From positions 1-53,296 of the IMG/VR virus record IMGVR_UViG_3300025769_000158: DNA of 53,296 nucleotides; one strand, given 5' to 3'. This DNA comes from a virus. The notes below the pieces were generated by a model, which worked only from the letters and a program-made list of their open reading frames with translations, made no database searches and was not told the origin of the DNA. Every line of letters begins with the position of its first letter. Positions within the stretch are counted from its first letter, which is position 1. Shown here one piece after another: positions 6,772 to 23,310 of this stretch. The translations under genes and the position numbers were made by a program.

Positions 6772-6866
6772 TTTTTCTTTTTATTAATTTCTTTTATATG
6801 ATAAGCAATAAGCCAAAGAGGGACAGATACATTAAGAAGTAAAATAAATACCGTTGTGTCGCTCAT
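6768..6866 (-). CDS. 32-residue single-TM peptide
   Basis: The peptide starts MSDTTVFILLLNVSVPLWLI, one hydrophobic segment, and ends in a lysine run (NKKKK). The stop TGA overlaps the next ATG (ATGA). Such positively tailed mini-membrane proteins can be lysis regulators, but no function can be assigned. Confidence 0.45.
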   Translation of the reverse strand: MSDTTVFILLLNVSVPLWLIAYHIKEINKKKK

Positions 6867-6867
6867 T

Positions 6868-6935
6868 TCTCTTTGGTGTTAAATGTTATTTCATTATGAT
6901 GTGAAATCCTTTTTTCATCTCTCTTTGGTGTTAAA
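6868..6935 (-). repeat. Duplicated translation-start element with a 10-codon ORF
   Basis: A 16-nt sequence, on the minus strand TTTAACACCAAAGAGA, occurs at 6883-6868 and again at 6935-6920. Each copy sits 1 nt before an ATG: the one at 6866 and one at 6918 that opens a 10-codon ORF (6886-6918, MKKGFHIIMK). Copies are 52 bp apart. This looks like a duplication of the gene start, leaving a remnant leader peptide. Confidence 0.5.
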
Positions 6936-6997
6936 GGTTCTATTAAAGACACAAAACCCTATCGTTTTGTATGATTATTGGTTATATGTCTCCGCAT

Positions 6998-7483
6998 TTA
7001 TAATTTGTCAGTTGCTATTATGTCTATACCAAATGCTTTTGCATATTGTAAAAGACCATCAAACACAAAGTTTGTCTTGCCTTGCTCTATTTTCCTTACA
7101 ACAGTAAGTGCTATACCTAACCTATCAGCAAATTGTTCTTGAGTTAATCCTGCCAATCTTCTTTTTTCTTTTAGGTACGAACCAAGAGTAACAGACTCTT
7201 GAGACAAAACAAAATAACTTCCGCTTACAACTTTATTGAAAAGGCTGTGTCCCAGTTCTTCAAAGTGTTTAATCCATTTTGTCTCTGCGGCACGGATATC
7301 AAGAATGTCTTTCTCAAGTATTTGAACTATCGGTTCATAGCTTAAAGAGTTGTACCATTCCTTCAAACCTTCATTATGAGACATTCTATGTTGATAAGGT
7401 CTGACTAAATCTTTAGTTTGAGACATACCTACATAAACAACATTTAGTTCATTGTCTGATAAAGCATAGATATAGTTTGTCAT
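6998..7483 (-). CDS. GIY-YIG nuclease-like / XRE helix-turn-helix fusion
   Basis: 161 residues. Residues 1-85 resemble a GIY-YIG domain: NYIYALSD for GIY, VVYVGMS for YIG, then an arginine-containing segment LVRPYQHRM, a glutamate in RAAETKWIKHF and LFNKV. Residues about 97-155 form an XRE helix-turn-helix (YLKEKRRLAGLTQEQFADRL, then a VRKIEQGK recognition region) closest in style to HipB-type repressors. Two identical palindromic sites lie 18-75 nt upstream of the start, indicating autoregulation. The fusion could be a repressor with a nuclease-derived domain or a nuclease that controls its own expression. It sits alone between two small-gene groups. Confidence 0.75.
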   Translation of the reverse strand: MTNYIYALSDNELNVVYVGMSQTKDLVRPYQHRMSHNEGLKEWYNSLSYEPIVQILEKDILDIRAAETKWIKHFEELGHSLFNKVVSGSYFVLSQESVTLGSYLKEKRRLAGLTQEQFADRLGIALTVVRKIEQGKTNFVFDGLLQYAKAFGIDIIATDKL

Positions 7484-7500
7484 AAGTAATTAGTTTTAAT

Positions 7501-7558
7501 TGTAAGGTTTTACCCTTACTTTGTGCACTACATTGTAAGGTTTTACCCTTACTTTGTG
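7501..7558 (-). promoter_or_regulatory. Two tandem palindromic operators
   Basis: An identical 25-nt sequence occurs at 7501-7525 and 7534-7558, 33 bp apart (about three helical turns, same DNA face). Each copy contains the inverted repeat GTAAGG-TTTTAC-CCTTAC. The pair lies directly upstream of the XRE fusion gene at 6998-7483, the expected place for its own binding sites. A further hairpin GTACC-ACTTT-GGTAC lies near 7608-7622. Confidence 0.75.
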
Positions 7559-7628
7559 AAAATTTAAGGTTCATCGTTGTGAGGATTTGCGATTCGCGAA
7601 TTACGAATGTGTACCACTTTGGTACGCA

Positions 7629-7940
7629 TTACTCTTCTCTATGTTCTTCTATCACCCATTTCAGTTGAGCGAGTTCTTGTGTTGTTAGGGTGTTAATCAT
7701 CTCGACCCTTTCTTGTAGTGCGGAAAACAACTCACTGGTTTGTGGGTCGGCATCAACTGTCCCTAGGGGTTTTCTGATCATGAACTCGATTTTCTTTTCG
7801 AGGTTGTTCATGAGTTTTTTGATGTCGTGTTTGTACAGTGCGGTCCCTTTGAAGTCGTCCATGGCATCGAGTGATGCTTGGTAGAGGACGAGTAGTTTCA
7901 CGGCGTTTTGGAATACTTTGAATTCTTTCTCTTTTGACAT
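7629..7940 (-). CDS. Helical protein, unknown
   Basis: 103 residues, almost entirely helical (FQNAVKLLVLYQASLDAMDD; SELFSALQERVEMINTL) with an acidic C-terminus. No motif recognised. It follows the cysteine-rich small gene by 18 nt in the accessory arm. Confidence 0.6.
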   Translation of the reverse strand: MSKEKEFKVFQNAVKLLVLYQASLDAMDDFKGTALYKHDIKKLMNNLEKKIEFMIRKPLGTVDADPQTSELFSALQERVEMINTLTTQELAQLKWVIEEHREE

Positions 7941-9574: not shown

Positions 9575-9988
9575 ATGAATAAGAGTGTAGAGGTTCTTTA
9601 CGACTATAGGAATTTCGTTCAGGAGTTTGAGGTTACTCAAAGTCGTGAGCGTAGGAACATCATTTACAAGTATGCATATATAAATGCGTTAAAGCCTTTC
9701 TTGGGATGCAGTGATGCGGGCCATGTCATCGGGTGTAACCACGCTACCATCCTGCATGCTTGGCGCGCTCATGAGACGAACATGCGTTATTCTAGGGACC
9801 GGTTGGAGTATGCTGATATCTATGAGATGTGTGTCAACCGCATCAGTAACAGTATTGGGGATGATTGTGACCCATTGTTCTTTTACACGAAGGGTGAGGT
9901 TATACGTATGTATCGATCATTAGAAAAGAAATACGAGGGTTATGCCAAGGAGCCATATATCGAGTTCGAAGAAATTTCGGGAGTTTAG
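9575..9988 (+). CDS. DnaA domain IV-like DNA-binding protein
   Basis: 137 residues, first gene of the rightward early region. The segment at about 40-65 (ALKPFLG..DAGHVIGCNHATILHAWRAHE) has the form of the DnaA domain IV helix-turn-helix, including the H-(A/S)-T-(I/V)-L-H-A signature that contacts the DnaA box. No AAA+ domain is present, so it is not a full initiator. It may recruit replication or act as an early regulator. The 3' end overlaps the next gene by 47 nt. Confidence 0.65.
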   Translation: MNKSVEVLYDYRNFVQEFEVTQSRERRNIIYKYAYINALKPFLGCSDAGHVIGCNHATILHAWRAHETNMRYSRDRLEYADIYEMCVNRISNSIGDDCDPLFFYTKGEVIRMYRSLEKKYEGYAKEPYIEFEEISGV

Positions 9989-18061: not shown

Positions 18062-18386
18062 TCTTAAGGAAAAACTATTCCTTATGATAGCATTGAGTTG
18101 GGGGTTGCGGATAAAGAAGTCTGCTACCCCCTTCTTTGTTACTAATAAGAATGGTAAGGAGATAACTTTTTATATAGAGGTACTTAATCATAGGAATTCG
18201 GAATTGGAGTTAACCGCTCCTAAAAAAGATGCGGACTACGCAATCGTTATCATACCGAATAAAAGGGGAGACAATCTTATCCTCTTTAAATTCAAGGAGT
18301 TGTTCGAACTCCCTGATCACACCTTTGAAAGCCTCGCAAAAAAATTAATTTTTAAAGAGCGAATAGATATTAGTCATGGAGATTAA
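18045..18386 (+). CDS. Protein of unknown function overlapping SSB tail
   Basis: 113 residues from the ATG at 18045, which lies inside the SSB tail codons; an alternative ATG at 18084 would avoid most of the overlap. Beta strands (KEITFYIEVLNHRNSELEL; DYAIVIIPNK) and a helical end. The 3' end overlaps the methyltransferase start by 11 nt. No motif recognised; position suggests DNA metabolism. Confidence 0.6.
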   Translation: MTYHSNLKEKLFLMIALSWGLRIKKSATPFFVTNKNGKEITFYIEVLNHRNSELELTAPKKDADYAIVIIPNKRGDNLILFKFKELFELPDHTFESLAKKLIFKERIDISHGD

Positions 18387-19335
18387 TCAACTAGACTTGT
18401 TCTCGGGCATCGGAGGATTCCACAAGGGATTTGAGAAGGCCGGGTATAAAGTAAACAGTTATTTTAGTGAGGTAGACAAACATGCCGTCGCTGTATATCA
18501 ATACCAATTTAAATCATCAACCTATGTCGGATCAGTTACAGATGTTCACGGAGGAGACCTCCCTAGAATCGACCTTATCACTTTTGGAAGTCCATGCCAA
18601 GACTTCAGCCTTGCTGGGAAGCGAAAGGGCATGGGTGGGGAACGCTCAAGCCTTATCCTTGAAGCAATACGGCTTATCAAACAATGCAGACCACGAGTTT
18701 TTATTTGGGAAAATGTTAAAGGAACTTTCTCCTCAAACGCTGGGGCAGATTTTGCGGGAATCCTCCAAGCCTTTGCCGACATTGGGGGTTATGACTGCGA
18801 ATGGCAACTGCTCAACACTGCGTGGTTTTTACCCCAAAATCGTGAGAGGGTGTACCTTGTCGGATATCTTGCAGAACCCCGAAGAGATTGGCGAGGAGTT
18901 TTTCCTCTCGTCGAGCCAAGTGGAAAAGATGGCGGGGTGGAAGGCGCAGGAGGACCCACTAGCAAAACTCTTACCGCAAGAGGACAACACGACCTACACT
19001 CCGGGATGCAACTCGTAAAGGTGGTCGGGTACAGTAGAGACAGCCGTGGTGTAGTTACCAATAGAAGCTTAAAAGACGAGGCTAATACATTACATACAAG
19101 CACAGGTAGTGGGGGAAACACGGATCAGTTTATAACTGATGGAAGGATACGTAGGCTAACACCTATTGAGTGTGAGCGCTTGCAAGGGTTCCCCGATAAT
19201 CATACCTTGTATGGAATCTTTGATGATGGAGTCAAAGAGGTAAGCAGGTCACAACGCTACAAGCAATGCGGGAATGCCGTGACAGTAGATGTCGTGAAAG
19301 CCATTGCGGAAAAAGTAAAACCTCTTTTTTTATGA
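18376..19335 (+). CDS. dcm-like: DNA C5-cytosine methyltransferase
   Basis: 319 residues with all main motifs in order: I LDLFSGIGGF (7-16), IV TFGSPCQDFS with catalytic cysteine (about 74), VI ENVKG (about 116), VIII QNRERVYLVG (about 152), the recognition region (about 170-260), IX RRLTPIECERLQGFP and X QCGNAVT. It transfers a methyl group from SAM to C5 of cytosine, probably to protect phage DNA from host restriction. No partner endonuclease is adjacent, so it is an orphan phage enzyme. It overlaps the PAPS-reductase-like gene in ATGA. Confidence 0.92.
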   Translation: MEINQLDLFSGIGGFHKGFEKAGYKVNSYFSEVDKHAVAVYQYQFKSSTYVGSVTDVHGGDLPRIDLITFGSPCQDFSLAGKRKGMGGERSSLILEAIRLIKQCRPRVFIWENVKGTFSSNAGADFAGILQAFADIGGYDCEWQLLNTAWFLPQNRERVYLVGYLAEPRRDWRGVFPLVEPSGKDGGVEGAGGPTSKTLTARGQHDLHSGMQLVKVVGYSRDSRGVVTNRSLKDEANTLHTSTGSGGNTDQFITDGRIRRLTPIECERLQGFPDNHTLYGIFDDGVKEVSRSQRYKQCGNAVTVDVVKAIAEKVKPLFL

Positions 19336-20192
19336 AGACAGTAAACTCATTAAGTGGAGGTAAGACCTCATCATATATTGCGGTGCACTACCCCGCGGAC
19401 TACGATGTATTTTCTTTGGTGCGTACCGATGACAAAGCATGTTTGTTTCCTGATCCCAAGGTTAGGCAGATAGTAAGTGATAAGCTCGGAAAGGAGTTTA
19501 TAGGAACCCTTGAGCAAGATGAAATCATATATACCATACTCGATCTTGAGCAGTTCATAGGAAGGGAAATACATTGGGTAACCGGACCCACCTTTGATGA
19601 GGTCATCGTTAGGGGCGAGCGTAAAGAGGGAGGCGCATACATATACCTTCCAAATGTTACGCAACGCTATTGCACAACCGAACTAAAGGTCAACCCCATC
19701 AAGCAATGGTGCTATGAGAATATGGAGTTGCCTATAGATATGCGCATAGGATTTAGAGCGAATGAAATCAAGCGTGCAAATTCAATGATGAACCGCTATC
19801 GCGAAGATGGATATCAATGGGACAAGTTTATTATAGGTAAGAGTAAGACCGGGAGAAGCAACAGGTATAAAGAGATGGCCTATCGTGTGTGTTCATTCCC
19901 TCTTATACATGACAACATATATAAGGATCAGATAGAATCCTATTGGAAAGACAAGCCGGTGCGCTTTGCCTACCTCAACAATTGTGTGGGCTGCTTCCAT
20001 AGAAACGAGATGCTCCTTAAACATATGTCGGATAAAGAACCTAGTAAGTTTGACTGGTTCGCAAAGCAAGAGAACGACAAAGCAAGATTTAAAAAAGGGG
20101 TGAGGTATGAAGATATCAAGTCCTATAAAATGCAATTTCAATTATTCGATGAAGACTTTAACGAATGCGATAGCGGATACTGTGGACTATGA
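19332..20192 (+). CDS. PAPS reductase-family ATP pyrophosphatase
   Basis: 286 residues from the ATG at 19332, which overlaps the methyltransferase stop (ATGA). N-terminal NSLSGGKTSSYIA is the SGGKTS PP-loop of the ATP pyrophosphatase/PAPS reductase fold. Cysteines occur at QRYCTTELK, in C-x-x-C at NNCVGCFHRNEM (about 223) and at the extreme C-terminus (DSGYCGL). True sulfate assimilation is unlikely in a phage this size. The coupling to a DNA methyltransferase makes a DNA-modification or sulfur-transfer role more likely. Family assignment is firm; substrate is unknown. Confidence 0.8.
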   Translation: MKTVNSLSGGKTSSYIAVHYPADYDVFSLVRTDDKACLFPDPKVRQIVSDKLGKEFIGTLEQDEIIYTILDLEQFIGREIHWVTGPTFDEVIVRGERKEGGAYIYLPNVTQRYCTTELKVNPIKQWCYENMELPIDMRIGFRANEIKRANSMMNRYREDGYQWDKFIIGKSKTGRSNRYKEMAYRVCSFPLIHDNIYKDQIESYWKDKPVRFAYLNNCVGCFHRNEMLLKHMSDKEPSKFDWFAKQENDKARFKKGVRYEDIKSYKMQFQLFDEDFNECDSGYCGL

Positions 20193-22763: not shown

Positions 22764-22979
22764 ATGGACCAAAAAGAACTCGCAAAATATTACCATCTAG
22801 CTTGTGATAAAGCACACGAAGAAATAGACGCGCTTTATGAAAATCTATTTGATTACCAAGGCAATCCAATTGTTAGTCAAGAGAAGATAGTTTCGGTGTT
22901 ACAATCGACAACTCAAAGGATCAGATTAGAATTGGAGATAATTAAATCTTCTCTTCAAGAACATGATGAGTCTTCATAA
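22764..22979 (+). CDS. Small helical protein, unknown
   Basis: 71 residues, helical (AHEEIDALYENLFDYQG; RIRLELEIIKSSLQEHDE). Common architecture for small phage proteins; no family. It overlaps the next gene by 17 nt. Confidence 0.6.
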   Translation: MDQKELAKYYHLACDKAHEEIDALYENLFDYQGNPIVSQEKIVSVLQSTTQRIRLELEIIKSSLQEHDESS

Positions 22980-23310
22980 GTGTAGTCGATGTCAAAAGAA
23001 AAAACCTGCGAGTGAATTCCATAAGAGCAATACACGACAGGCAGGTGTCCAGAGGTATTGCAAGGAATGCAAAAGGTTGGTGGACCGCAATGGCAAAAAG
23101 GCCCACAATGGAAAGTACATCGTATACTACCTACCTAAAGAAAGGTATGTCGGCATGACTCAAAACTACAGGAAGCGAATGTACAAGCATAAGATCAGAG
23201 GCCGTAATACCCGGGGCAGTAGGATACTACTTATCACTGGGAGCAGTAAACTTGCCCACCTATTAGAAACATTACTACACCTAGTAGGTTACAAAGGGTT
23301 TCGGTACTAG
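22963..23310 (+). CDS. Zinc-ribbon GIY-YIG nuclease-like protein
   Basis: 115 residues. The N-terminus has CSRCQKKKPASEF and YCKECKRL, two C-x-x-C pairs as in phage zinc ribbons. Then GKYIVYYLPKERYVGMTQN..KRMYKHK supplies YIVYY for GIY, RYVGMT for YIG and the conserved arginine; a later glutamate (HLLETLL) could complete the site. Either a homing-type nuclease or a small recombination nuclease. It ends the early unit; its stop codon overlaps the convergent lysis-type gene's stop. Confidence 0.65.
   Translation: MMSLHKCSRCQKKKPASEFHKSNTRQAGVQRYCKECKRLVDRNGKKAHNGKYIVYYLPKERYVGMTQNYRKRMYKHKIRGRNTRGSRILLITGSSKLAHLLETLLHLVGYKGFRY

Follow-up and report, generated by a model that had tools for sequence, protein, structure and literature searches.

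The locus lies in a 53,296-nucleotide stretch of viral DNA (IMG/VR record IMGVR_UViG_3300025769_000158, positions 1 to 53,296), the whole of which is referred to here as the window. Its central feature is a minus-strand gene coding for a protein in which a GIY-YIG endonuclease domain is joined to a HipB-like helix-turn-helix (HTH) domain of the XRE type, and directly upstream of this gene lies a pair of identical repeats (Table 1).

Table 1. Features of the fusion gene locus and its surroundings (window coordinates)
Feature	Position	Strand	Basis or remark
GIY-YIG + XRE (HipB-like) fusion protein, 161 aa	6998..7483	-	ORF, profile matches, alignment, predicted model and fold match
GIY-YIG catalytic domain, aa 3-75	7259..7477	-	PF01541, 14-sequence alignment, I-TevI fold match
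XRE/HipB-like helix-turn-helix, aa 100-155	7019..7186	-	HTH_3, TIGR03070, HipB fold match
Gene-proximal repeat copy (gene-strand sequence, CACAAAGTAAGGGTAAAACCTTACAAT)	7499..7525	-	Exact 27-bp repeat
Second identical repeat copy, 33 bp off	7532..7558	-	Exact 27-bp repeat
Putative mobile cassette: ORF preceded by 17 nt and followed by a few nt beyond the stop codon	6989..7500	-	Left edge, start of G018/L003 homology; right edge, L244 empty site
Resident left flank, comprising the GTACC-N5-GGTAC dyad (7611-7625) followed by the two repeats	7502..7629	-	87.6% identical to gene-less L244
Resident right flank	6912..6988	-	97.4% identical to L244

Searches with Pfam profiles placed an HTH_3 domain on residues 104 to 155 of the protein (E = 2.4e-10), and the nearest NCBIfam model is the HipB-type TIGR03070 (E = 3.6e-14, under the cut-off of that model). 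As to the predicted GIY-YIG character of the N terminus, PF01541 matches residues 3 to 75 at an E value of 4.5e-4, with a score of 20.9 bits that falls just under the Pfam gathering score of 22.6. Across the fusion family, represented by an alignment of 14 sequences, eight members match PF01541 at an E value of 0.01 or less, the best at 7.3e-5, and the residues Y6, R28, H32, H36, E67, and N83 are invariant. In an AlphaFold model, which is of modest quality (mean pLDDT, 72.9; pTM, 0.46) and unreliable in its interdomain placement, the closest fold for the GIY-YIG domain is that of the I-TevI catalytic domain (residues 2 to 86 against 1ln0_A; Z score of 9.1, 2.3 Å, 80 aligned residues); the model also matches the N domain of UvrC (1yd6_B; Z score of 7.2), and residues 91 to 161 resemble HipB (8ezt_B; Z score of 9.4). 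From the fold match and the invariant catalytic residues, we conclude that this is a true nuclease domain, which is probably active. Thus, the 161-residue GIY-YIG and HipB-like HTH fusion that had been recognized from the DNA alone in the original prediction is upheld by the open reading frame, the HTH_3 match, both fold matches, and the catalytic residues. The window also encodes a second GIY-YIG-like protein (22963-23310, plus strand), with a Cys-rich N terminus, a partial PF01541 match (E = 0.004), and a PHROG endonuclease assignment, as well as a C5 cytosine methyltransferase, the gene for which overlaps one coding for a PAPS reductase-like protein (18376-20192, plus strand).

The search for the same domain fusion elsewhere was successful: scans of viral contigs recovered 31 related loci, one of which (L002) codes for an identical protein, with most of the others being 30 to 40% identical. 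In four fusion relatives (L108, L109, L110, and L111), the recognition helix is of a different HipB subtype (GVGLRFVRELEQGK), and the GIY-YIG part belongs to the same family. The HTH part is thus more variable than the nuclease part, and the sequences point to an apparent swap of the targeting domain in these relatives. Matches to the fusion protein in phage and plasmid databases are almost exclusively to its HTH domain, and none of 395 Bacteroidota genomes matched the GIY-YIG part in a search that had no positive control. A chromosomal origin of the fusion was considered and set aside, as the bacterial matches examined are stand-alone HTH domains. We found no description of a GIY-YIG/HipB fusion in the open-access texts searched; hence, the combination of GIY-YIG with a HipB-type XRE domain, present in at least 30 viral contigs, is apparently an undescribed architecture. 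The interest of the gene lies both in this architecture and in the clean sign of its recent transfer between distant phages, which is presented below.

The upstream repeats had been predicted to be two identical 25-bp palindromes spaced 33 bp apart. Their identity and spacing hold, but each is 27 bp long and the only perfect dyad within it is GTAAGG-N6-CCTTAC, which spans 18 bp. Two copies were encountered in none of 100 shuffles, and a third copy is absent from the window at up to three mismatches. The repeats are in direct orientation, and their core (AAARTMAGGGTAAAACCTKAC) is asymmetric and conserved; the outer arms of the dyad display no covariation in relatives. An RNA hairpin reading was rejected, given that the outer arms lack compensatory changes across 55 distinct doublets (Fisher P = 0.13 to 1.0) and that some members of the set have a consensus promoter 3' of the repeats, which in those members need not be transcribed. 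Two additional dyads, at 7585-7608 (ATTTGCGATTCGCGAATTACGAAT) and 7611-7625 (GTACC-N5-GGTAC), are located between the upstream gene and the repeats and are conserved in L244 and other loci.

With the large terminase subunit (TerL) as the guide, relatives of the window phage were collected (70 to 94% amino acid identity), and none of the 73 examined possesses the fusion gene within the fetched stretch. One relative is L244 (from the same record as L133), the TerL of which is 80% identical to that of the window phage. Both flanks of the gene are matched in L244 (Table 1), and between the matching flanks there is the gene in the window and only a short leader in L244. As this gene-less orthologous locus already has the repeats, the repeats predate the insertion of the gene. 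The same order of repeats, leader, and an element similar to the right flank, without the gene, is observed in five loci (L131, L133, L134, L145, and L170, with L133 being the same phage as L244). More generally, the gene found after the same repeats varies among phages, and the leaders are built of repeated units. One such unit, TTTAACACCAAAGAGA, occurs in the window at 6863-6887 and 6915-6939, directly 5' of the start codons of small minus-strand ORFs, and in relatives it stands before many small genes; its appearance is that of a translation leader or a recombination seam. In L129, a protein similar to the second GIY-YIG-like protein of the window is encoded downstream of the repeats. A repeat leader of this kind also precedes, at 1435-1998 of L124 and 6547-7110 of L185 (minus strand), a gene that by eye resembles HNH/NUMOD homing endonucleases, which suggests that several nuclease genes have used the leader as a landing site.

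The movement of the gene is evident from G018, the record that contains L003. Over 267 bp reaching to the contig end, a region comprising the first 83 codons, its copy is 93.6% identical to that of the window at the nucleotide level; the C-terminal half of this copy lies beyond the contig end. This sharply contrasts with the backbones of the two phages, in which TerL is 68% identical in amino acids and 65% in nucleotides, the portal protein is 63% identical in amino acids, and other shared proteins are 34 to 57% identical at the amino acid level. The match begins abruptly at window position 7500, 17 bases before the start codon and just inside the repeats, which are absent from G018. The leader 5' of the gene in G018 (...AAGCATATAAAGATGGGTTTATCCATC) differs from that of the window. 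It is shared, with no gene behind it, by L246 and, apart from a single change, by L238 and L129; hence, the same cassette edge joins two different resident leaders. A gene shared between distant backbones and placed behind different leaders reflects the horizontal transfer of a compact ORF. As judged from these sequences, the fusion gene has recently moved between distant phages independently of their backbones. Its mobility and its absence from close relatives agree with the selfish element that had been among the options first raised.

The gene and the adjoining repeats can thus be independent modules, and this bears directly on whether the protein represses its own gene through the two repeats acting as operators, in a lysogeny-like or carrier-state switch. 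The position of the repeats directly upstream of the gene at a 33-bp spacing speaks for self-repression, and the GIY-YIG enzyme I-TevI is a known autorepressor (PMC2988022). A weight matrix built from the repeats detected repeat-type sites within 400 bp upstream of the gene in only 5 of 32 fusion loci, namely, the window, its near-copy L002, L009, L011, and, weakly, L007; in the last three, the site lies at most about 180 bp upstream. However, the remaining 27 fusion loci have no such site, including L003, which is 94% identical to the window in the nuclease domain. The search for further operators did retrieve the exact 17-base repeat core (AAAGTAAGGGTAAAACC) from 75 other viral-contig stretches, but 73 of these loci have no fusion gene, and of the two that do, L156 is the contig of L002. 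Similarly, 28 other repeat-bearing records have neither the fusion protein nor an HTH_3 protein over the cut-off. Further, the residues of the recognition helix do not sort with the presence of repeats: ALTVVRK is found in the window, with repeats, and in L004 and L017, without them, and SLKVIRK is found in L009 and L011, both with repeat-type sites. An operator specific to an XRE gene would be expected to travel with it; here there are repeats without the gene and genes without the repeats, and the moved block excludes the repeats. Since the repeats do not belong to the gene, and predate its insertion, autorepression has lost its main support and we consider it unlikely. Comparison of these loci instead identifies the repeats as an older shared element of these phages rather than the fusion gene's own switch. 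A palindrome over the -7 box of freshwater relatives may be an operator, but it coincides with the promoter consensus and was not relied on. The phage had been noted at the outset to be without an integrase, and the window has no match to Phage_integrase (PF00589); as the same is true of 21 other records, nothing at the level of this domain points to lysogeny. The original interpretation is therefore partly supported, being right as to a selfish or mobile nuclease and not supported as to the repeats being its own operators.

With the domain identity, the conserved catalytic residues, the empty site, the horizontal transfer, and the independence of gene and repeats established by comparison, we propose that the gene, free-standing and horizontally mobile, codes for a GIY-YIG endonuclease of the homing-endonuclease-like kind, the XRE domain of which recognizes the DNA, and that the gene entered a resident leader already bearing the repeats. 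A compact cassette of about 512 bp, an ORF with almost no flanks, would have inserted into an intergenic leader of a Bacteroidota-type phage, at a point immediately 3' of the tandem 33-bp repeats already in place. The HipB/XRE HTH is predicted to bind DNA and supply sequence recognition, the GIY-YIG domain would cut the DNA at a corresponding target site, and repair copying of the cut DNA might then drive the spread of the gene, which could be transcribed from the resident leader. The homing type is indicated by the gene being intergenic, compact, mobile, and catalytically conserved; like free-standing homing genes, it is also absent from close relatives, has an identifiable empty site, and moves apart from the backbone. 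Counting against this reading, the classic GIY-YIG homing enzymes recognize DNA through a NUMOD, a zinc finger, or an extended DNA-binding region, and not through an XRE dimer domain. Further, leader repeats could simply recombine with one another and thereby move the gene, leaving similar junctions without nuclease-driven homing; for this reason, we regard the homing-type gene as a reasonably probable explanation rather than a firm one.

Such genes have precedent in phages. Free-standing GIY-YIG homing genes are established in the intergenic regions of T4-like phages (PMC2988022), and in ICP1-like phages, nuclease genes have been reported to lie at the borders of exchanged regions (PMC10448857). 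I-TevI and the T4 Seg endonucleases share with the fusion protein a GIY-YIG domain of the same fold and a separate DNA-binding part with an HTH, and the Seg genes are likewise intergenic and mobile (PMC2988022). The fusion differs from them in its compact HipB/XRE domain, in the absence of a zinc finger, a NUMOD, and an intron, and in that its upstream repeats are not specific to the gene. The methyl-dependent wH-GIY-YIG restriction enzymes Ahi29725I and Apa233I also combine GIY-YIG with a reader of the HTH type (PMC11037411); however, the reader is a winged helix and not an XRE domain, and they are not phage encoded but are bacterial type IV enzymes that read N6-methyladenine. The C-terminal domain has the fold of the HipB antitoxin and Y4mF-type XRE regulators, to which the TIGR03070 similarity also points, but unlike HipB it is joined to a nuclease, and no HipA kinase partner is seen next to the gene.

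The passive movement noted above is the substance of an alternative in which the gene is an ordinary accessory (moron-like) gene exchanged between leader repeats, possibly serving in early regulation or acting on the DNA of the host, and without homing. The construction of the leaders from repeated units, the different genes found after the same repeats, and the recurrence of the right-flank repeat TTTAACACCAAAGAGA in the window and its relatives are all in keeping with such exchange. The invariance of the catalytic residues across the family favors instead a working nuclease under selection, and bare-ORF transfer is typical of homing genes, so that we give this alternative little weight.

A role in interphage conflict was also considered, in which the tandem 33-bp element of rival phages would be recognized by the XRE domain and cut by the GIY-YIG domain. 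The precedent is Odn of vibriophage ICP1, which, like the fusion, is a chimeric phage protein combining a GIY-YIG-family nuclease with a DNA-binding domain borrowed from another system. The target of Odn, on the PLE, consists of tandem, semipalindromic repeats of about 30 bp, and these iterons are required for cutting (PMC8263062). The 33-bp element would be a good target, in being widespread and confined to one locus per phage record, and repeat-type sites adjoin the gene in three other fusion loci. However, Odn has a RepA_N domain and attacks a satellite, whereas the fusion has an XRE domain. A nuclease of the Odn type would be expected to target tandem repeats that a competitor has and its own phage lacks, but the window phage bears two perfect copies of the repeat, which it would cut unless they were protected. 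For the same reason, a superinfection-immunity switch that cuts at operator sites, as once envisaged, is unlikely. As most fusion-bearing phages also lack sites near the gene, and the helix residues are unlinked to the site, we regard an interference nuclease as improbable. We accord as little probability to the related possibility that a family of phage GIY-YIG endonucleases took over a HipB/XRE repressor domain for its targeting, with this element of many Bacteroidota phages as the target. If true, the protein would be an Odn-like weapon or a homing enzyme directed against a conserved phage control or replication site.

Under the homing-type explanation, the resident tandem repeats would serve a DNA-binding protein other than the fusion. 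Many Bacteroidota-type phage contigs (L113 to L235) have the element (core AAARTMAGGGTAAAACCTKAC) at just one locus, often at a boundary of late and early genes; in the largest repeat group, it lies 5' of early genes. Close copies are confined to one locus per record (30 records, up to three mismatches). The unbiased evidence for its spacing comes from the exact-core records searched at up to three mismatches, about two-thirds of which have a second copy 33 or 34 bp off, with three copies in one. A pattern search for the tandem form retrieved 79 stretches, nearly all with a spacing of 33, the pattern itself imposing 33 or 34. Some members of the set have a Bacteroidota-type -33/-7 promoter pattern 50 to 130 bp downstream of the repeats. 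The element might possibly comprise activator sites, operators of a non-XRE phage protein, or origin iterons. It is strikingly regular, at a single locus of so many phages, and its binding protein can be looked for. A DnaA-like phage protein was examined as one such candidate, with DnaA_C being matched in 24 of the 30 doublet-set records. This link is weakened because DnaA_C is also matched in 9 of 21 TerL relatives, most of them without the doublet, and has no match in the window, and it was not taken as decisive. At a divergent gene boundary of the window (9575-9988, plus strand), a small protein that has no Pfam or PHROG match displays, by eye, a motif resembling that of DnaA domain IV (GHVIGCNHATILHA).
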